From Apoda limacodes (Eukaryota; Arthropoda; Insecta; Lepidoptera; Limacodidae): DNA of 64,000 nucleotides. The DNA is taken from NCBI GenBank assembly GCA_946406115.1, contig OX291547.1:4159001-4223000 (forward strand). Direction: 5' to 3'. Below are positions 1,541 to 45,841 of this stretch, piece after piece. A program made the translations under genes and the position numbers. The notes under the pieces were generated by a model. That model saw only the letters and a list, made by a program, of their open reading frames with translations, searched no databases and was not told the origin of the DNA. The stretch's first letter is position 1. Each line of letters opens with the position of its first letter.

Positions 1541-2623
1541 TTATGTAGGTTCAAAGTTTATCGTTAAGTTAGAAGGGGAAGGGCCCCATCTACGTTTTAT
1601 TTGCTTACAATAAAATCGCGAGAATGTATTTTCGCTACGCCAGTTTCCTCTAGCCAAAATATCCTCTATAGGGAAATTTTCATACCTGTTCAGGGACGCT
1701 ACAGCCGAACGCAAACTGCCAGGTGTTGCAGAGATACCAGCCTCCCGCAATACTGTTTTAACCCAGTTACCTATTATAGTTCTCGAGGCGGCCCCCACGT
1801 TGCCTAGGATTGTTAGAAAAAGGGCATCTTTACATTCGACTGCTCGTCACTGTGTACCTAGCTCTCTGGTGACTTGTAAGTTTCTAACCTGGCTGCCTGT
1901 TTGCTGATGTGTCTGTTTTAGATCCGAACGCCGGATATAAAATAATGTAATCGCCCGCACCTTTATAATAATCAGTGGAGACCTTTAATAATGTTAGGTC
2001 ATGTACTCGCCTTCCGGAAGCGAGAAGTAAAATGCAAGCCAACCTACGAGAAGTTTGAAATAAGTTTTCATTATTTTCAGAGTTATTTTGCAACCATGCA
2101 GCCAAGTCTCTTGGATCCCAAGTAGGGGGTTTGTCTGCTTTTGGTCTTTGGAGGAATATGGCTTTTAATATGTGTTTGACTAGAAAATGTGAGTTTAAAT
2201 TTTCATTATTGACTGTTTTACCAAGTGTTAGTTCTACTGATTTGTGAAGTAAAATTGTTAGGTAAGCCAATTTTTCTTTGAGGAACAAGTGTGCCAAGTA
2301 TTTTGATAATTTGATATTCTTTGGATGCTTAAAACAAAATTATTTTCTATACACCACTTTGTCCACCGCGACCATGCTGGCTTGTAAGTTCTTAAAGTAG
2401 AATCTCTCCAATTGGATGTCAGTAAGTCCTTCTCGGCCTCCGACCAGTTTTCAATTATCCTGCTCCAGCCCCAATCTTCCAAACATAAAGCTCCATGTCT
2501 TGAACGTGAGATGGTGGCCGGCCGGTACTCTGGTCTACTAATACCTGATCCAAGTTCGTGATTTTCATGGGCTTGGCAAGAGCTCGTCTGCGGAGGTCCG
2601 GCAGCCAAAATGCCCTCTTCCAC
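1541..2623 (-). pseudogene. DIRS tyrosine recombinase remnant
   Basis: Three overlapping frames together give a DIRS-type recombinase. The N-terminal part (2623-2258) includes a core-binding stretch with 'WSEAEKDLLTSNWRDSTLRTY'-like residues. The middle (2297-1884) carries the catalytic arginine in SGRRVHDLTLL. The C-terminal part (1798-1541) has the second arginine in PGSLRSAVAS and the candidate nucleophilic tyrosine in FSRFYCKQI. The enzyme would cut and rejoin the circular cDNA intermediate at the target. Frame changes near 2290 and 1800-1884, plus an in-frame stop between the last two pieces, show that this copy cannot make the protein. Confidence 0.8.
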
Positions 2624-2660
2624 ATTGGTGCAACCAACAGGAATAGTCCTTCGGCTGTGT

Positions 2661-3873
2661 TCAGGTGATGAAGCACTCTGGGAAGCAAGCTCGGCGGGGG
2701 AACAAGTATGGTAGCTGGTATTGCTTCCTGAAGTGTTTCACTGCTGCTATTATGGCAAACATTTCTTTGCGGTTGCAGTACCAATTGGTTTGGTCTAGGC
2801 GCCATCTGCCTGATATCGTGCAATCGTCTAGTTGAGCTCGCCACCCATAATCATAATCGGCATCCGTGGTATAAAAGTGATGCAAAAGGCTCTTCGTCTG
2901 AGGTCCTTTCAGTGTAGCGATCCACCAATCCAAGTCTTCTAAGACGACATTTGGTATTGTTAAGGCCTTGTGAAGAGCTAGGTGCTTTAGAACTCGGCAG
3001 TGTCTCTGCAGTTGACGGCAATGTAGTCTTCCCCTTGGTATTACAAAATTGGCAAAGTTGAGAGGTCCTAACATGATTTGAGATTCTTTTAATGTTCATC
3101 ATTGTCGATATCTTTTGAACTTTCCTTAGTGGAAGACATTTCAAATTCTGTTTTGTGTTCCAGACTACGCCTAGAAATTCGATTTCTTGAGTGGGTTTTG
3201 TCACCGACTTTTTGTGATTTATCGTCCAACCTAACATTTTGAGGGTGTCTATGGCAGAGCTTTCACATGCGATTGCAATAATTGGCGTGACTGGTTTGCC
3301 ATCAAAAAATCGTCCAGGTACACGATGACCCTGACGCTCTTGTTCCGCAGGTACTGTGCTATCCAGTTAGTCAGGGCCGCAAAATTTTTCGGGACACACG
3401 AGAGCCAGTAAGCAAGTCATCTGTAAGACTTTTTGCTCGTATATTAGTCGAAGAAATCGCCTGTGGCTCTCCGCGATGCTCAGGTAAAAATAAGCTGATG
3501 ACAGATCCAGTTTTGCCATCCAGTCCAGCCTCTGGAGAAAATGCAGAACTTGAAAATGCGATATAACCTTTAAGGGCTTGGGTATTATGAACTGGTTGAG
3601 CAGTTTGAAATTGAAAATCGGTCTGTACGAGTTGTTGCTTTTCTTTGTCAAAAACATTGTTGAGATAAAGCTGGGTCCTAGAGATCCTTGATCCGGTATT
3701 TCTATGGCACCTTGACTTACTAATATTTCGATTTGTTTCGTCATCTCTGTAGACTGTGGTGTCTTGAAGCGATTTAGTACTTCTGTTGACGGGTGAAGTA
3801 ATGTTGGCTTGGAGGTAAATGGCAGATGCATTCCCGTAATCATGTCGAGAAGGGCCTCCGGAGCCCGAAGCAT
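2661..3873 (-). pseudogene. DIRS reverse transcriptase / RNase H remnant
   Basis: The N-terminal part (3873-3367) has the early RT motifs YRPIFNFKLLNQFI and MAKLDLSSAYFYLSIAESHR. The catalytic YLDD lies at 3320-3309 in a different frame, followed by FLMANQ. The next piece (3237-2851) has GWTINHKKS and EIEFLGVVW, the thumb-proximal RT motifs. The last piece (3074-2661) has an RNase H-like TDADYDYGWRAQ and RKEMFAI. At least three frame changes separate these segments. The product would copy element RNA into cDNA. The YLDD is intact, so decay is recent enough to recognise every motif. Confidence 0.85.
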
Positions 3874-4233
3874 CTGCCACTGCCTTCGATACGCTCGACG
3901 ACAGCCTCTATAAAACTAGCGCTGAGGGGGCAAAGAGTAATTTGTCAAAATGTCTTTTAACTGGTCGGCCGTCCTTCTTAAACAGCTTTTTGGCCTTAGA
4001 CGAGTGGTTTTGCTTTGAGCCGTTTCCGCTGAATTAATTAGTTTTTCTGATAAATTGGTCATTTTTCTTGAACGAAAGGAACTATTTGTTGATTGATGAC
4101 GGTTTTTGATTTGATCTTCCTATTTTTGAGTTAAACCAAGGTCGGACCCACTTTTCAATGCCACCCGTATTACCTATGTAAGCGCGCAGCTGGTTTTCAT
4201 CAAAAAGATGACTAGAACACGCAAGTTCGTGTT

Positions 4234-5082
4234 TTATATTTCGATATACTCCGCTCGTTTTCTGGAAACGAGTTGCATGATTTCCTCGGAGACTTTGTGA
4301 AATTTTAAGCTAGGATTAAACAATTCCGATATATTATCAAAGATATTTGATGCTGACAAAACTGTTGTCGGTAAATCTGCCCAATCGATAAACTGCTGAA
4401 GGTTTTGATTAAGAGTCTCACGTTGAGCTAAAAACCCGTTACTTATAGCTGCTACGATTTTTTCGGAACTTTTTTCCCTCGAGGTCGACAAATCCCGGAG
4501 TTGCACAATGGCCTTTTAAAACTTCAGTATATCGTACATCTTTCCATGCATTAGTACCAAAACGTTGTAAAACATCAAGTTGTTTAACGCGTTCTGGCTT
4601 AGAACGAGGTACTTTAGGATCTTTTAGGGTGGTATTTATTACACTCAAGTTCAAACGCGGTGCTTCGATTAAGCCAAAAATATTTGCGCCCGCGGGGCGA
4701 TTTAGATTAAAGTTGAGCAATGTAGGCCCAACAAGCTCCGGCCCCGGCTGCGAATGCGGCGGTAGCATTTGAACTAGTGTGGGTAGGTAGCGGAACATTA
4801 GCAACAGTGTCGCCTGCATCAACCGAGCGACATACAGTCAGGATAGCAGCAGAAGAAGTGCGATCTGTATAAGCACTAGTTAACGGTAATGGTACTAAAC
4901 TACCGCTGACACGTTGTAAACGTGGACCAAAAGTTTGTTAATGCATTAACTTGGTTCGACAAAATACTGATGTCTGACTCATCGCGTTTCCGACGTTTAG
5001 ACTTGCCTAAAGATACCTGCGATGACTCGGACTCTGACGAAGACTCCGAATCGCTCGAAGAGGCATGGTCTCGCTTACAGCC
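4234..5082 (-). pseudogene. DIRS gag-like protein remnant
   Basis: The N-terminal segment (5082-4900) is open and reads as a Ser/Asp/Glu-rich stretch followed by KRRKRDESD and a NALTNFW segment, ending at a TAG (4902-4900). A second segment (4822-4439) has PRLNLSVINTTLKDPKVPR and ERVKQLDVLQRFGTNAWKDV. A third (4506-4234) is helical and ends RKRAEYIEI. The position 5' of RT and the low-complexity acidic start fit the DIRS ORF1 (gag-like) protein, which packages element RNA. I identify it by position and composition, not by a conserved motif. An open frame on the opposite strand at 4922-5215 is only its shadow. Confidence 0.6.
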
Positions 5083-14406: not shown

Positions 14407-17400
14407 TCAATATAAAAAGCTCGAAGGTGGCGGCCGAGGGGAAGGGGCCGGGCGCGCGAGGCGAGGATGAAAAGCCCCCAAAGCTGCCTCATTAGTAGAA
14501 GATGGCCGCTCATCCCTTACTCTTAGCTGCGGTAGGCGCCACGCGGCACAAGCAGCCGTTAACGCGTGTCTATTTAACGCCCAATAAGCTGCTGCATTCA
14601 AAGCCGAGTGCATATAACCTAATAACAAAGCATATTGAGCTAGCAACAATGGAACATGAAGTCCAAATGCGCTAGATATGATAATAAAAGCGTGTGGACA
14701 CCAGCAAGCGGCGAAGAGAGCGGCTATGCCCATAAGGACGTTGCCAAGTCTTCGTCTCGCGCGGAGAGTTGACGTCTGAGGCTGCGGCCCCAGGAGGCTG
14801 GGCTGGAGCCTCTTCCCTCTGACATCGCCGACGTCGACAGCATCTCGACGTTCTCTAGGACCCACGCCTGCGACGATGATGACGTGCGTAGGACGTTGTA
14901 TCAGAGGTACTGGTAAGGGCAGCTCCCCGTGCGCTGCGCGTGCTGTGAGAGAGAGTGCCGTAAGTTTGACACGAACTGCCCAGTGGCACCGCGCCACCGC
15001 TATCACCGGGAAGCAATACGTGATGAAAGCGTGCGCAGCGTCTAAGGGGGGACAGGATATGCATGTCGCTACGAGTGTTGCTGCACCTGAAAAAAAATAC
15101 ATAAATTACAAATAAAATATTGCCTCCTTTTAAAAAAGATCATGAATGCAACATGTATAAAAGTAATACGATTCGTGACTAACGTTTTTCTTATATTATC
15201 TACTCACACGGCGAATAGTATTCAATAGAATACGATAAACTCACTTAAGTAGGTATAAAATTACATAATTATTCTGTGTAGGATCGTACAGTATTGAGCA
15301 CATTTTATTTACATAAAATTTAAAAAAAAACTGTAAAGTAAAGTCAAAGTCAGAGTTTGAAAAAATATATAATTAACAGACATTAATTTCTTTCACTAAC
15401 CATGTTACTTTAGTACAAGTACTCGTAATCAGATTACCTTGTCAACTTTGTCAACTTTGTGATCTACCTATTATTATAATATCAAATATTGAGTAATCAT
15501 TTTTACTGGTCGATAACAATATCTCATGCTTATTTATATTATAAAAGGAAAATGTTTGTCTTTTTAATGAATTCAAGTATGACAAATGCTTGTGCAATGC
15601 TTGATATGAAACTACACGCAGCATATACCTACTTTTTGAATTGCTATAGGCTTTGTATCATGCTGGCGGAACCGCTGGGAACGACTAGTCTATAATAAAA
15701 CTAAATAACATCCGAAAAATTGGTGGGTGAAAAAGTTAAAGTGTAGCTGCCCTGACCTTACCTAGCAGCAAGGCTGTCATCCAGACAGCGAAGACAGCTA
15801 GGAAGGGTCTCGTGCAGAGCGCTGCGCTGCGCCCGCGCCGCACCGCGTCGCAGCGGTCCGACGCCAGGGCCACCAGCGACAGCGTACTCGCCGCCACGGG
15901 GAACGACTGTCGGAACAAAGCAATGCCGGTTTACACGATGCCAGTATCTGAACCCAGTAACACGATTTTCGGTATAATCTAATTGAAAAAACTTTAACTG
16001 CTAAATACATACTCTACACAGAAAGACAAAAATTATATTTATTTATTTGTTAGATTATTTTACCGGGATGGTGTTACACGACCCAGTTAATAGTCTCCAA
16101 ACTAGAGTGTAAACCAACAATCACTGCTAATTCTCAAGATGATCTATACCGCCTTGATTAGTGATGCTTCGTAAACAAATCAAATTAGGTTCGGCGTAGC
16201 GTAAAAGGTGATGCGGATGATTTAGCACAAGGGTGGCTAAAGAGGAAAACAATAATATAAACACATTTTATCCCAGTTAAACAGTTCAGAAATCTCAAGG
16301 CGATAACTCAAATAAACACACACGAGCAAAAACTATAGGTTTCATTGATATGTTCTTCAATACCGAGTTACAAACCCAAAAACCCATAGCTACGTAAAAA
16401 TATTAAAAAAACCGGCCAAGTGCGAGTCGGACTCGCACTCGAAGGGTTCCGTACCATTATCTATAAAAACGGCATTTTTATTTTTATTTATTGTTTATTT
16501 TTAAGTGAATATATAATTAAATATTCCGTGAATATTTTAAGGGTCTACCTGTTGCCGTTATCAATATCGAGAAAAAACGAGCAAAAAACTGGTGTTTGTT
16601 GTATGCGAGCTTCTTAAATATTTATTTTATTATATTTTTTAGTATCTGTTGTTATATGGCAACAGAAATACATCATCTGTCAAAATTTCAACTGTCTAAC
16701 TATCACGGTTCATGAGATACACCCTGGAGACACAAGGATGGACAGCGAAGTCTTAGTAATAGGGTCCCGTTTTTTACCCTTTGTGTACGAAACCCTAAAA
16801 AGAAAGTAGTTCCTAGATTTCAAGGCCAGGCTGAGGCCTTAGAGGCAGTTTTGAGTAAAACTCTCGGTCAATTAGGCTGTCCGAACTATTCGCATATTTA
16901 CCTCAATATAATAAGTGATATGACACGGATGATAGTCGAATCTGACCGCTCGTGTGGCTGCTAAGGGTGCGCTGGCTGCGCAGACCAGCAGGTCAGCTGC
17001 ACACGCGCTTAGCAACTGCGGCGTGCGCAGTCGGGCTGCACCCCCCGACGCTAGGGCTGCCATCAGGCTCACATTACCTACAAAAAAGAAAATTCAAGAG
17101 TAATCTAAAGCTGAATCTATTTGCTGTTAAAATGTATTTGAACAAGAAAGACATTATAAAAAGTAATTAAGAAAGTTTCAAAGGTTAACTTTCGACATTT
17201 CGGACTTTAATTCAAATACCTGTATTATGTAGACAAGTTAGCTTAATAATTTAAGCCAAACTTTTTTCGATACAAAACTTAGGTAAATTTTTTTAAGCAA
17301 TTAAAAACTCTAGGATGTCGAAGGTTTCCTTCTTTAAACCATGAAAACCTTAATTGAACCTTGTTGCTTCTGTAGTAAGGCGGTAGAAGGTGATAGCGTC

Positions 17401-26756: not shown

Positions 26757-26900
26757 GTAAATACATACATTTCATTTATAAATACACCCAGAGTCAAGAA
26801 AAACACAAATGTTTATCACATAAATGTTTGTCCAGTGCGGGAATTGAACCCACACTCTTGGCAGCCGGCCACACTAGCAACTAGGCTGCGAGGGAGTTAA
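26757..26900 (-). repeat. tRNA-derived SINE, copy 1
   Basis: Read on the minus strand: CTCGCAGCCTAGTTGCTAGT (box A region), then a box B-like GGGTTCAATTCCCGCAC and a tail with AAACATTTATGTGATAAACA and CTGGGTGTATTTATAA. The copy at 45693-45841 shares all blocks. Confidence 0.75.
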
Positions 26901-27201: not shown

Positions 27202-27832
27202 AAAATTGGACAGAAACGATTGTCTTTATTACAATCTCAAAAAAGATATTCGCAATAAGCAGGGTCCGTTTTCCAGAAACAGCAAAATAATAATTCCCAT
27301 ATTTTCTGATTCACTTTTTCCTCAGGACGTAATTGTGGACGCCGGGGAAAAATAAAAAACGTAAACGAACTGACAAACGGGAAGCGGTCGCTCTCATAAC
27401 TGTTTTACTACTTTTTTTATCGGTTTTATTTATAAAGCTTTTAACGGATATCGCTTTCTGAAACTGTTCCTTTGCTATGCATGTTTCGTTTAAGTTTTTA
27501 AAGTTTTTATTTATGGATACTTGAATTGAGTCCTTAATTTATCAAGATATTTTTTTGTAAGTATTTTCTTATGAACAAAAAGTATTATAAGCCTATTTAT
27601 TAAACGACTTGAAAAAAAGGAGGTTATTAATTTAACCTATATATTTGTATATAATATTGTTAGAGCTGCACAATATTTATATATGTTAGTCTATGTGAGC
27701 TTCTAAACTGCATAACTGTATATAGGTAAGTATATATAAATATCTCTTACAATCTAGATACCAACACATCAATTTCACGTATAGCAACCAAAAAAAAAAG
27801 AGCTCTCTGCTGCTGTCTGTCGAGCACATACT
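27202..27832. other. No gene seen
   Basis: AT-rich spacer up to the minisatellite. Confidence 0.5.
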
Positions 27833-28304
27833 TGTCTGATTGTATACCAGTCATCTTATCGTTATTGTCTGATTGTATACCAGTCACCTTATCGTTATTG
27901 TCTGATTGTATACCAGTCACCTTATCTTTATCGTCTGATTGTATACCAGTCACCTTATCGTTACTGTCTTATTGTATATCAGTCACCTTATCTTTACTGT
28001 CTGATTGTAAACCCGTCACTTTATCGTTACTGTCTGATTGTGTACCTGTCACCTTGTCGTTATTGTCTGATTGTATACCAGTCACCTTATCGTTATTGTC
28101 TGATTGTATACCAGTAACCTTATCGTTACAGTCTGATTGTATACCAGTTACCTCATCGTTATTGTCTGATTGTATATCAGTCACCTTATCGTTATTGTCT
28201 GATTGTATATCAGTCACCTTATCGTTATTGTCTGATTGTATACCAGTCACCTTATCGTTATTGTCTGATTGTTTAGCAGTTACTTTCTCGTTACTGTCTG
28301 ATTG
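27833..28304. repeat. 33-bp minisatellite, about 14 units
   Basis: Tandem units of TGTCTGATTGTATACCAGTC plus ACCTTATCGTTAT, 33 bases each, with few substitutions between units. Because 33 is a multiple of three, the array reads as an 11-residue repeat on both strands: SDCIPVTLSLL on plus and NDKVTGIQSDN on minus. There is no upstream start context or splice signal to support a real protein. Confidence 0.9.
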
Positions 28305-29985
28305 ATGTATGTATTTACCTAAACTAAACAAATATTATTTTCTTTTTATTTTTTTACTTTTCAATAAACGGAAACATTTTTTTGATAATAAATAATGCAA
28401 GACATAGAAATAAGGCTATGTACTGAGGCATATTGTTTGAATAAAAAAAACGGGGATTTTTTTTTTGAAGCATAAAATTTTTCTAAAATATCTTACTATA
28501 TTTTAATACAATTAAATTAAAACTTTAAAGAATTTCGCACATCCCAATAAAAAAAACATCAGATTTTAGTTTATTTAGTTCACAATTTGCACGCGAGAGA
28601 CCTAAGTAGGTAGATCAGCTAGGTTAATAGTTATTATCTTCACTCAGTTAATAAGCGTGGGTGTTTATTTAGATAATTTTATTAGTCTTCCCATATTAAA
28701 TCATACTGAGTACTTAACCTAATAAATAATACCTAATTAAATTAATATGCTCGACAGAAGCACTATTTTTTTTGGTTGCCCTACGCGGAATTGATTTGTA
28801 TTGCGGAATTTACAAACATACTCCAACTAAAAAAACCAACATCACACCTAACCAATATAAAAATATTTCACAATAAATACATTTGTGTGTATACTTTTAA
28901 AATGTATAAGAGTTTATAAATTTAAATGACTTACAAACATAATGAAAAATTATGTTTACGTTAACACTGAAACAGCAACGTTTTGTTTTGAAATCAATTT
29001 CGTAAAGTTTTTGTTTACACTTTGATCTCCGTAACAGCAATTTCGGATGCCTGTTGCTCGCCTTTTATATTAAAACAAAATACAGAAATAATGTTTGTTA
29101 TAAATTTTATACCAGAAATGTAAAAACTTTATTGTTTTAACTTAATTTTTTTTGTATACAATTTTTTATATTCTTTTAATTTTGATATTTTATTTTTTAA
29201 AGCGCTTCACCTCGTAACAAGACGGGCGATTGTTATTCGCGGGACGTGCGCTTATTGCAAAAGCTGCACGGTTACTGCTGAAAGCTTTTCATAAGCTTTT
29301 GAAATTACGTTCATAGTAGGACAATAATCTGAAGGCCAGATTTGGTTACACGTTAGAGTGTGCGAAAGGTGAAATATGTGTTCCTTATCATCAAAATGTG
29401 TCAAATGTATTTAAGGGGACTTCCATTAACTATATGAGGCGATTTTTCGACCCCACTTGTGAGATATAATGATACGGAGCTCAACCCCTGCCACATCTCA
29501 CATGAGCTTTTTTTAAATGCGTAATATTAATGTAAATTCGTTAAAATATTATTTAAAAAAAAACATAATTAACCGCGATAAATATTATTCTAGCATTTTG
29601 CCATATTTTACCACCCTATTGGAATTAAAAATCAATCGACTAATTGTTGATTGCGGTAGCTACAATTAATAATTTATTAATTTGCAAATGTAGCAATTAA
29701 CATAGTTTGATTAATTGTTAATGCGTTAGCCACAATTAACAATACATTAATTGTTTATTGCAATTATTTTTTAACTAAACTGCTATATATATTAACTGAA
29801 ACTAAATATATAACTCCTACACTCAGGTGTGCCTCTTAATGGACTCTCTTATGCCCTCTAAAGTCTATATGAGGCACATATTCTCAGCCTAGGAAAAGAA
29901 TCAAAATGTAATTGGTGTCGTTTGCAAGTAAGAACATTATCGTAAAAATTTGCGCGTGATATCTTGTTATCTAAGTTGCAGAACA
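28305..29985. other. No gene seen
   Basis: AT-rich DNA. At 29640-29760 two diverged copies of an ATTAATTGTTAATGCGTTAG-like word, rich in TTAATT, form a short self-complementary repeat. No gene supported. Confidence 0.5.
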
Positions 29986-31413: not shown

Positions 31414-31418
31414 CGCCG

Positions 31419-31446
31419 CACAGTGGGGTATTTCAATGTAAAAACT
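31419..31446 (+). repeat. Left Transib terminal repeat, 12-RSS-like
   Basis: Heptamer CACAGTG (31419-31425), a 12-base spacer, then GTAAAAACT (31438-31446). The heptamer equals the V(D)J consensus. The nonamer-like block matches ACAAAAACC at 6 of 9 positions. Confidence 0.8.
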
Positions 31447-31690
31447 GGTCATAATACCTTTTCCGCAAGTTGTTAGGTTAGTAGAGTATCTTACATCGTT
31501 AGAAAGAGAAAGAAACAAAGCATTCGATAACAATAGAATCAAATACCAGAAGCTAAAATCGGCCCGCACCGCTCAGTCCGGATTTACCGTTCATTCATTG
31601 TGTTCGTGTACGATATCCAGGTGCTTAAAAATTGTGTTTAAACAATTAACTGTGATTTTTTCAAAATACATATTTGTTAAAAAGTTTGTG

Positions 31691-34111
31691 ATGGATTCTG
31701 TGGAGCCAGGTATGTTCTTGGTTTTAATTTATTATTTTACGAATAGGTGTCAAATAAAATCTGTCTGGCTTGGCCACAATGTCACCAGTAAAACAAATTA
31801 CTAATTTTTCAAAATCCGAAAGTTATTGGGAGTTTTAAATCTGTTCTTAACTTTATTAAGGTTTAAACTCTATTTTGTGTCAAGCTCTAACAAATGTTGA
31901 TTAGGTATCAACTTCAATTAACCGCCTATTTGCGCCTATTTTTTTTAAATAAAATACTTAATGTAACCTTACAAAAAATATGTACTACTTAATAATATAT
32001 GAATTTTATTCTAGGCCGCTCTGGACTAAAGTCTATGACTCGAAATCAGTTGTACGATCTGATGGAAGGGGCGACTATTGACAAGAAACTTGATTTTATG
32101 GAAAATAAGATTCTCTGTGACTATTACAATGCCGAGCAGAAATCTAATGTGAAACATAAATTATCAAATTTTAAGTACCAATTCAAGAAAAGGTGGCGCG
32201 CAGCGCATAAAACAAAGGTGGTGTTTGAAAAGAACAATAAAGACTGGCTTAACGGAATTATACTGCTACCTGATGCAAACACTGGAAGCAACAAAACCAG
32301 ATCTTTCGAGGCACAAGCAGGTAGTAATTACCTTTTTAATTCCGTTTTTTAAATGTGATGTTGAGACTTTTTTGCATAAGTTTTTTTTTTTGTTTAGCTA
32401 TTACTTCTGGTCCCGGTCGTCCACGGAAATTATTTCTAGAATCAAGCGAGAGGACAAAACGCCGGAAAACAGAAGATCTACGAAGCTCAAACGAATTAGC
32501 TAAATTAGCATACGCGACACAAATGAAAATGCGGGAAACTGGCAAAGCTGATGCTTCCCGGGTCATGAAAGAACTTCAAAAGACACCAACAAGAGCTAAA
32601 AAATATAAGGAAGCCTATCTTAGCAGTAAAGAACCACAACGTCAACTCTCTATCTTAAGAACGTTCTCGATGATAGCCGATGCGAACCTTTCGAGAGATG
32701 GATACAATGCTGTACGAGACACAAACAAAAGCTACTATCCGTGTTACTCTGTGATACAAAAGGCAAAAAAGGAGATTTATCCTCCTAAAGAGGCTTACAG
32801 GGTGACCGCTACCTGTGCTGAAGTTAAATTACAAGCCTTGATGGATATTACAGCTAAAAGATTACTTATGCAAGATTTATTAAATAACTTGAGTGACGAA
32901 GAAAAAAAAACAATTGTTTTGGTCTCTAAGTGGGGCTGTGACGGCTCCCAACAAGCCCAATTTAAAATGAAATTTGAAAACGACATTGAGTCAGACGCCA
33001 ACATTTTTCAATCCTCAATGGTTCCTGTACAGTTGATTTGCGGACAAAACAAACGAATTATTTGGCAAAATGACACACCTTCATCACCTCGATTTTGCCG
33101 GCCAATACGACTGAGATTCCTTCATGAAACTTCAGATATCACTAAAGAAGAAATTTCTTATATAAATCAAAAAATTAAGGATTTAATAAAAACAAATTAC
33201 AGGGATACACATATCAAGCACAAAATGGTCTTCACTATAGTAGATGGTAAAGTGTGCAACGCAGCAACCCACACCAAATCCACCATGAAATGCTACTTGT
33301 GCGGTGCTACATCCACAGAATTTAATGATCTGACAAAATCAAGACCTGTACAAAAAGAAAATTTATCATTTGGTCTTTCGTTGCTACATGCTCGTATTCG
33401 ATTTTTTGAAATCCTGATGCATGTAGCTTACAAATTACCAATAAAAAAATGGAACAAAAGATTGACTGCAGAAGAAAAAGCAATTGTTAAAACTACAAAA
33501 AAAAAATTCAAGAAAAATTTAAAAATGAATTGGGCCTTTTAGTTGACATGCCTAAAACAAATTTTGGGTCAACTAACGATGGAAATACGAGTCGAAGGTT
33601 TTTCCAGGAATACGAAAAATCTGCTCAAATAACAGGCATCGACCAAAACTTAATTTATCGCTTAAAAACAATATTAGATGCTTTGTGTAGTGTATATAAG
33701 ATAAATATAGAAAAATTTGAATCCTATGCAAAGGAAACCGAAAAACTGTATGTCAGTCTGTACAGTTTTCACCCACAGTCACCCACCATGCACAAAGTGT
33801 TACGCCATGGTGCCCAAGTGATTCAAGAAGCCATGCTTCCTATTGGTCAATTATCTGAAGAGGCAGCAGAAGCGCGTAACAAGCACATACGAGAATTTCG
33901 CTTAAGCTTTTCACGCAAATTTTCACGAGAGGCCTGTAACATGGATGTCATCAACCGCCTCCTGTTCACTTCAGATCCACTTATATCGGGTATAAGAAGA
34001 AAACCGAAAAATAAATTAAAAACTTATAACAGCGACGTGTTGGAATTATTGTCACCCAGTGAATCTATAAACGAAAAAATAGAATTAAGTTCCGATACTG
34101 ATTCTGAATAA
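31691..34111 (+). CDS. Transib transposase, RAG1-related; one frame change
   Basis: Exons 31691-31709, 32015-32320 and 32398-34111 join with GT-AG borders and matching phases to about 680 residues. After an N-terminal helical region comes GPGRPRK (about 113-119), like the GRPR DNA-binding hook of RAG1. The catalytic DDE residues are D in WGCDGS (about 290), D in VDGKV (about 391) and E in LSEEAAEARNK (about 599). Between them lies CYLCGAT, matching the RAG1 zinc-binding CxxC. The order and residues follow the RAG1 core. The enzyme should cut at the CACAGTG ends by nick-and-hairpin chemistry in the nucleus. In an A10 run (33497-33506) the frame changes by one base, so exon 3 is split unless the run is misread or slippage occurs. 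AATAAA (34107-34112) overlaps the stop codon. Confidence 0.9.
33497..33506 (+). other. A10 run where the transposase frame changes
   Basis: Upstream of the run the frame reads ...TTKKKFKK and soon stops. Reading one base back gives KIQEKFKNELGLLVD, which continues the conserved protein. One added A (11 in all) would restore the frame. The run also fits an A_AAA_AAA minus-one slippage site. Confidence 0.85.
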
Positions 34112-34227
34112 AATTTTAATATACTGTATTTATTTGTGTTTTATTGTCAAGTTAGTTACTTAGGAAACGGAATATTGTCTTATAATAATACACTGAAATA
34201 TAAAATTATTGAAAAAAAATATTGGCC

Positions 34228-34255
34228 AACTTTTTGGTCCAAATACCCCACTGTG
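34228..34255 (-). repeat. Right Transib terminal repeat, RSS-like
   Basis: Read inward: CACAGTG (34255-34249), an 11-base spacer, then CCAAAAAGT, which matches ACAAAAACC at 6 of 9 positions. It shares the first 15 bases exactly with the left end. Confidence 0.8.
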
Positions 34256-34299
34256 CGCCGGTGGCGGCGAAAATTAGGAAATCGGTTAATTCGTAAATA

Positions 34300-35035: not shown

Positions 35036-35450
35036 TGTAATTACTAGTAGTTCCTGAGATTAGCGCGTTCAAACAAACAAACTCTTCAGCTTTATATATT
35101 AGTATAGAAAAAAAACCTGATTTTGAAACATTTTTCATTAGTGCTCCGCTCCAATTTGTGTTAGCATGATGATATATAGCCTATAACCTTCCTCGATAAA
35201 TGGGCTATCCAACACTGAAATTTTTTTAAATCCGAACAGTAGTTCTTGAGATTAGCGCGTTCAAACAAACCATCTCTTCAGCTTTATATATTAGTTTAGA
35301 TTTAAAAATATTCATTAATCTAAAGTAAAACTCACATTTGACGTTTTTAAGTAGCTTATGTCCTATTTCGGGACTCAAACTATCTCCATGCCAAATTTCA
35401 TCTAAATCGATTCAGACAGACATCGCATTTATGATATTAATACGGATTAT
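35036..35450 (-). repeat. RTE-like dispersed repeat tails, two adjacent copies
   Basis: AGTAGTTCCTGAGATTAGCG with CGTTCAAACAAACAAACTCT and AGCTTTATATATTAGTATAG at about 35043-35107. The same set returns at about 35236-35299, followed by CATGCCAAATTTCATCTAAA. These are the usual 3' segments of a common lepidopteran repeat. The duplication suggests two tandem or nested insertions. Confidence 0.7.
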
Positions 35451-45692: not shown

Positions 45693-45841
45693 ACAACGGA
45701 TACAAATACATTCATAAATACACCCAGACTCAAAACAAACACAAATGTTAATCACATAAATGTTTATTTAGTGTGGTAATCGAACAAACACCCTCTGCAC
45801 AGCAGCCGGCCACACTACCAACTAGGCTGCGAGTGAGCCGT
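45693..45841 (-). repeat. tRNA-derived SINE, copy 2
   Basis: Same blocks as 26757-26900 on the minus strand: CTCGCAGCCTAGTTGGTAGT, a degraded box B, AAACATTTATGTGATTAACA and CTGGGTGTATTTATGAATG. Confidence 0.75.

Follow-up and report, generated by a model that had tools for sequence, protein, structure and literature searches.

A Transib element in Apoda limacodes

The stretch of Apoda limacodes DNA analysed here (contig OX291547.1, positions 4,159,001 to 4,223,000 of the forward strand; 64,000 nucleotides, hereafter the window) carries, at positions 31419-34255 (+), a 2,837-bp copy of a Transib DNA transposon, each end of which begins with CACAGTG, the heptamer of the recombination signal sequences (RSSs) of V(D)J recombination. 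It is generally accepted that Transib is related to the RAG1 recombinase, the enzyme assembling antibody genes. We consider it nearly certain that this is a DNA transposon of the Transib superfamily, presumably of the cut-and-paste type, and one copy of a recently multiplied family: its ends, the CGCCG duplication, further copies with duplications of their own, the catalytic residues, the place of its transposase among those of Transibs and a broken reading frame are seen directly. The family is new among Transibs; the kind of element is known. The features of the locus are listed below (TSD, target-site duplication; TIR, terminal inverted repeat).

31414..31418 (no strand): left TSD, CGCCG
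31419..34255 (+): whole Transib element, 2837 bp, delimited by its ends, the TSD and other copies with the same ends
31419..31433 (+): left TIR, perfect part CACAGTGGGGTATTT, imperfect as far as ~31456
31438..31446 (+): nonamer-like block GTAAAAACT, spacer 12, with an A-run (31440-31444) at the place of the 12-RSS A-run
31691..31709 (+): predicted exon 1, encoding MDSVEP and part of a G codon, from GT/AG sites; its N-terminus resembles P0008
32015..32320 (+): predicted exon 2, N-terminal domain, from splice sites and tblastn with P0001, P0008, P0009 and others
32398..33496 (+): predicted exon 3, first part, with GRPR, D, D, CxxC and H
32403..32645 (+): region resembling a nonamer-binding domain, 81 amino acids (aa), with GRPR (predicted fold, Foldseek, VIA; weak scores)
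32415-32426 (+): GRPR motif, within the first part of predicted exon 3
32940-32942 (+): D aligned with HzTransib D126
33243-33245 (+): D aligned with HzTransib D225
from 33291 (+): CxxC; 33387-33389 (+): H; both kept in the window transposase
33497..33506 (+): run of ten A (A10), with the reading frame lost nearby, through either a genuine mutation or a fault of the assembly
33497..34111 (+): predicted exon 3, second part, in a different frame, stop at 34109-34111
33869-33871 (+): catalytic E aligned with HzTransib E436
34229..34237 (-): nonamer-like block CCAAAAAGT, spacer 11 from the right end
34241..34255 (-): right TIR, CACAGTGGGGTATTT
34256..34260 (no strand): right TSD, CGCCG

The two ends are identical at 15 of 15 positions and at 27 of 38 overall, and 12 or more matches in the last 23 positions would be expected by chance with a probability of 0.011; the exact CACAGTGGGGTATTT has two occurrences in the window, one at 31419-31433 (+), the other at 34241-34255 (-), and no more. 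CACAGTG is thus present at both ends, as the initial annotation had reported, as the first seven bases of a 15-bp perfect repeat. On its own this heptamer is not rare (seven occurrences in the window against 3.96 expected); what counts is its location at both ends of the element. The CGCCG duplication that had also been reported lies at 31414-31418 and 34256-34260, a 5-base identity between flanks that has a chance probability of 0.0016, and it sets the element proper at 31419-34255; of the span 31419..34260 originally proposed, the start therefore holds and the last five bases belong to the duplication.

The transposase gene

Between the ends lies a single gene with predicted GT/AG introns, supported by tblastn with relatives. 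Its predicted exons are open apart from the break at the A10 run, which the initial annotation did not mention. Nine relatives (P0001, P0002, P0006, P0008, P0009, P0018, P0022, P0042 and P0093) span the break as single proteins in tblastn. The copy had been described as nearly whole, which is right for the DNA with its complete ends and not for the gene, whose frame is lost near 33497-33506. Could the break be a homopolymer assembly error in a copy that is intact and possibly active? Its position at an A10 run, the otherwise open exons and the nine relatives whose single proteins reach across it would all fit. However, stops and shifts are scattered through other copies, so that decay is general, and each of ten compared copies is 1.1% or more away from the window copy; we therefore hold this explanation to be unlikely. 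None of 17 copies, some of them partial and with L060-L062 left out, passed a string test for four motifs in one open stretch, and a genome-wide protein search met stops inside many matches, although closing stops may be counted among these. The window copy could move only with an intact enzyme supplied from elsewhere, if at all.

The encoded protein is a RAG1-like transposase, as initially proposed. The solved chain of HzTransib from Helicoverpa zea (PDB 6pqn, 6pqx) matches the two open reading frame (ORF) pieces of the window with E values of 6.5e-56 and 2.2e-46, ProtoRAG matches the second piece with 0.0061, and a profile of 25 relatives gives 2.9e-158 for HzTransib, 3.1e-10 for ProtoRAG and 8.4e-6 or weaker for vertebrate RAG1. 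Alignment with HzTransib shows the catalytic D, D and E as well as CxxC and H all to be kept. A whole-model structural comparison barely covered residues before 176, and the N-terminal domain was therefore folded separately; the best Foldseek match of the predicted fold of its GRPR-containing domain is the nonamer-binding domain (NBD) of RAG1, with a weak score. Of 44 relatives, at least 90% share the GRP. In a Pfam scan no family rose above the cut-off for the window's own transposase pieces; the RAG1 family appeared below the cut-off in P0022, P0042 and P0049 and was not returned for P0001, P0002, P0008 and P0033. The label PF26100, precomputed on many relatives and on RAG1-like proteins, was not returned by the scan either. 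Scans of viral and bacterial collections with the window ORF and alignment A1 yielded no relative; the exact 15-base end matched 34 viral stretches once apiece, which we take as chance.

Phylogenetic place and known systems

The tree comprises 67 rows: the window transposase, HzTransib, 29 of 120 listed Transib relatives (594 were found) and 36 RAG1-like proteins; no row is named vertebrate RAG1, which was compared by profile search and structural alignment instead. The split between Transib and RAG1-like proteins has a support of 100/100, and the window transposase stands on the Transib side, so that the alignment suggested at the outset yields a phylogeny inside Transib. The smallest supported set joins it with six relatives (7 rows, 100/99), drawn in the quick tree as P0001, P0002, P0003, P0006, P0009 and P0019, and the next (9 rows, 100/100) includes P0008; the exact places of HzTransib and P0156 are unsure because of their long branches. 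P0001 (Onthophagus taurus), P0009 (Chilo suppressalis) and P0019 (Helicoverpa armigera), which belong to the 7-row set, and P0008 (Anticarsia gemmatalis) are 58-64% identical to the first window ORF piece, and all four are annotated as uncharacterized or hypothetical in their source records; P0001, P0008 and P0009 differ in being single proteins across the frame break of the window copy. Many of the listed Transib relatives come from contigs of ~2.8-3.1 kb, about as long as one complete element; such contigs may be transposon copies that were collapsed during assembly.

HzTransib shares with the window element a single transposase gene, a 5-bp TSD and an alignment of the DDE core and C-terminal tail across nearly the entire solved chain. 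It differs in sequence (~40% identity between P0008 and 6pqx), and its solved chain aligns from model residue 178 onward only, past the GRPR domain. The Helicoverpa zea element is reported to have 3518 bp and the TSD GCTCG (PMC1852546), and little or no nonamer similarity at its ends (PMC8289069). The C-terminal tail of the window transposase aligns with HzTransib as far as chain residue 481, and by this likeness the element is probably of the Subgroup II kind; that HzTransib itself belongs to Subgroup II we infer from the text of PMC9435367.

ProtoRAG and other RAG-like transposons (RAGL), like vertebrate RAG1-RAG2, share with the window element a homologous catalytic core, ends starting with CAC and a 5-bp TSD (PMC7204232). 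They form a separate clade, and the window element lacks a RAG2-like gene; the identity to RAG1 in the structural alignment is ~16%. A transposon of the ProtoRAG type with a RAG1L-RAG2L pair would account for the shared RAG1 homology, but it is refuted by the Transib side of the tree at 100/100, and no second gene was found among other ORFs of at least 60 aa in the element, which reach at most 92 aa, transposase pieces excepted; its probability is practically nil. The element instead combines a CG-rich 5-bp TSD (CGNCG), TIRs starting with CAC, a RAG1-like DDE transposase and a single gene, the features of the Transib superfamily; the RAGL features, a transposase in the RAG1L clade and a long second ORF for a RAG2-like gene, are absent.

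Other copies and the age of the heptamer

A DNA search with the window element returned at least 36 matches in the genome (G000; 800,300,627 bases in 31 contigs), and 20 stretches were fetched that cover all 36 except C16:12107130, which later proved to lie within L072, and C7:2445508. They hold 19 copies or fragments besides the window copy; ten are near full length and 96.6-98.2% identical to it, and L054 is also near full length except for a nested insertion. The 11 near-full copies have a mean substitutional distance of 1.34% (0.50-2.63%), and among their variable columns 153 are private to one copy and 25 are shared; low distance and mostly private changes together indicate that the family multiplied recently, in a burst from few sources. 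Both 5-bp flanks agree exactly in 14 of the 18 two-ended copies (window copy counted), and 8 of these 14 read CGNCG.

Two fetched copies deserve separate mention. In L049 (G000:C7:892634-896080) the outermost bases of the right end are changed to GCCAGTG, and the left end is intact with its GCGTC duplications matching. The insertion in L054 (G000:C28:34817926-34822096; 428-1140 when oriented, approximate boundaries) spans 713 bp with long inverted repeats (GGTCTGCGTCC...) and is probably another DNA transposon. Two Transib fragments from the genome-wide protein search, L067 (C11:9818889-9819995, +) and L066 (C11:10480759-10481865, -), lie ~660 kb apart and have identical match statistics, as if the region had been duplicated in inverted orientation or misassembled.

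Collecting the genomic copies, as the initial annotation had proposed, showed that conservation extends beyond the first few bases. It cannot be read as a sign of constraint, a possibility that we considered and rejected: among the 11 near-full copies 1/38 and 2/38 end columns vary, against 174/2771 in the rest, so that the ends are conserved no more strongly than the interior and recent common descent suffices. CACAGTG is found at 15 of 19 left ends (CACATTG at three, TACATTG at one) and at 15 of 18 right ends (another sequence at three); of the 18 two-ended copies, 13 carry it left and right. The four copies with T at the fifth base, L056, L059, L061 and L062, are the four most diverged among those with a left end, at 3.1%, 2.8%, 10.2% and 11.3% substitutions from the window copy, and none of the 15 remaining copies has it; their right ends read CACAGTG in L059 and L062, GACAGTG in L061 and GACGGTG in L056. 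The simplest reading of these sequences would be that CACATTG is ancestral on the left and CACAGTG recent there. Because L056 and L059 exceed only slightly the divergence of L053, which at a mean of 2.28% stands farthest from the other near-full copies, it is mainly L061 and L062 that argue for an ancestral T; the T-carrying copies would also be explained by a separate subfamily.

Other Transib families in the genome

A protein search of the same genome for Transib gave 82 matches, and 20 further loci were fetched and scanned with an end detector (TIR match at least 11/12, TSD match at least 4/5). Four loci were positive, all enclosing the transposase match, and other detections reached 9-10/12; a looser detector gave no additional convincing pair in the further loci. 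The detector overlooked L061 and L062, both of them decayed, so a locus at which it finds no ends proves nothing. L063 (2749-5735 of the fetched stretch, G000:C16), seen in one copy, resembles the window family in being a Transib with the GRP motif and a CG-rich TSD (CGTCG/TGTCG), and differs in its CACAGTA ends, which open a 26-bp perfect TIR, and in the spacing of its A-rich block, which is ACAAAAATA at one end (spacer 22) and ACAAAAGGT at the other (spacer 23); it has no stop across the matched part (P0008 residues 87-606). Its best nonamer match at RSS-like spacers has a chance of 1.3% at one end and 10.5% at the other. L068 and L075 form one family with CACAGTG ends, a TIR of ~60 bp, no GRP and the TSDs CGGCG/CGGTG and CGGCG; despite these ends, their nonamer match is at best 4/9. 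L074 has CACACAC ends and the TSD CGACG. All four families with ends thus have only CACA and a CG-rich 5-bp duplication in common. GRP also occurs in L064, L073, L081 and L082, loci without detected ends, and is lacking in others; in three families it tracks the A-rich block, the window family and L063 having both and L068/L075 neither.

How are the ends recognized?

By analogy with HzTransib and RAG, a transposase dimer would bind both ends, cut at the C of CAC to leave hairpins on the flanking DNA, and join the released ends to a 5-bp target rich in CG; hairpin-forming cut-and-paste is described for HzTransib in PMC6941560. Does the enzyme also read something further inward? In the window copy GTAAAAACT (left, spacer 12) and CCAAAAAGT (right, spacer 11) each match the nonamer ACAAAAACC at 6 of 9 positions, and a run of five A (A5) lies within one base of the 12-RSS position at both ends, with a chance of 2.0% per end. 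The 12/23 asymmetry is not seen: both ends are 12-like, and at spacers 22-24 the match is 5/9 on the left and 4/9 on the right. PMC8355894 describes Transibs that also have a heptamer-like start and an A-rich block, with spacers that are symmetric at 20-22 bp or asymmetric at 12/23, in contrast to the 12 and 11 of the window copy; a symmetric 12-type Transib was not found in the literature searched, mostly passages, which does not prove its absence.

The refinement that we favour, at about even odds, is a two-part recognition in which CACAGTG at the end would be held by the catalytic core and the A5 run 21-26 bases in by the GRPR domain of the N-terminal part. It is suggested by the A5 at the 12-RSS position of both ends, the conserved GRP and the agreement of GRP and block in three families. 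Against it stand the small number of families compared, three in all, the recent descent of the copies and the weak structural scores. A nonamer match as good as that of the window copy occurs at 4.0% of random window positions for spacers 11-12 and at 10.7% for 11-13 plus 22-24, and a local control for the window family at RSS-like spacers gives 12.6% per end; the A-rich block first noted at 11-12 bp is thus present at both ends and weak on its own, and as strong evidence the nonamer match was rejected, given a chance of 4-13% per end. The block and the GRPR domain may also be unrelated, with the enzyme reading the terminal ~15 bp and A5 being inherited AT-rich sequence: perfect identity of the ends stops after 15 bp, the ends vary among copies no less than the rest, and recognition of ~15 bp is proposed for RAGL in PMC7204232. 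We put this at slightly below an even chance. Against it, beyond 15 bp the two ends agree again at four A, then TGG, GRP conservation among the relatives is high, and the GRP families have, near an RSS-like distance, the block that the GRP-less one lacks, in three families only.

Far less probable is that the ends are true RSS relics, with heptamer and nonamer kept since the RAG ancestor and with CACAGTG and the 12-like spacing ancestral. The exact CACAGTG at both ends, the GRPR domain and the A5 within one base of the 12-RSS position on either side (4e-4 by chance for independent ends) could be cited for it. However, the two ends are not independent, the few families with ends already differ in the position of the A-run, L068/L075 reaches at best 4/9, L063 has CACAGTA with spacers 22/23 and L074 has CACACAC. 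The left ends of the four most diverged copies that have one read CACATTG or TACATTG, so that the exact left heptamer looks recent; the terminal conservation that the initial annotation had asked about is real, yet the exact CACAGTG is missing from precisely these ends, and the view of it as a meaningful relic is not supported, four families sharing CACA only. The initial annotation thus gave the exact identity with the V(D)J signal more weight than it bears. We judge this account very unlikely. The family cautions against inferring descent from identity: a recent change at a single end appears able to produce the exact V(D)J heptamer.

If two-part recognition is taken further, the GRP families with spacers 12/11 (window) and 22/23 (L063) might each have an enzyme that reads its own spacing by way of a flexible NBD. 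This has a slim chance of being right. If true, plain Transibs without RAG2 would already contain the raw material for the 12/23 rule, namely two classes of spacer and an NBD on a hinge, and the loss of GRP in the HzTransib-like L068/L075 would accompany the loss of the block.

Neighbouring features

Elsewhere in the window, 1884-4837 (-) holds a broken reverse-transcriptase region (RVT_1, E 0.0011, below the cut-off, 3367-3915) with further ORFs adjoining, perhaps a DIRS-like element. An exon-like ORF at 14407-15105 (-) has a weak match to rhodopsin-type receptors (7tm_1, E 1.3e-5, below the cut-off), and a tandem array of a 33-bp unit occupies 27733-28392, with an open frame over much of the array (191 aa). 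Short dispersed repeats (26773-26863 and 45709-45799; 35046-35115 and 35238-35307) resemble the ends of lepidopteran short and long interspersed nuclear elements, in keeping, like the 31 contigs, with the genome of a moth or butterfly.

Significance

Transib being the relative of RAG1, Transib families with clear ends and comparable copies, such as those described here, are useful, and the position of the A-run together with the GRP domain in the families of one genome offers a concrete test of the origin of two-part recognition.
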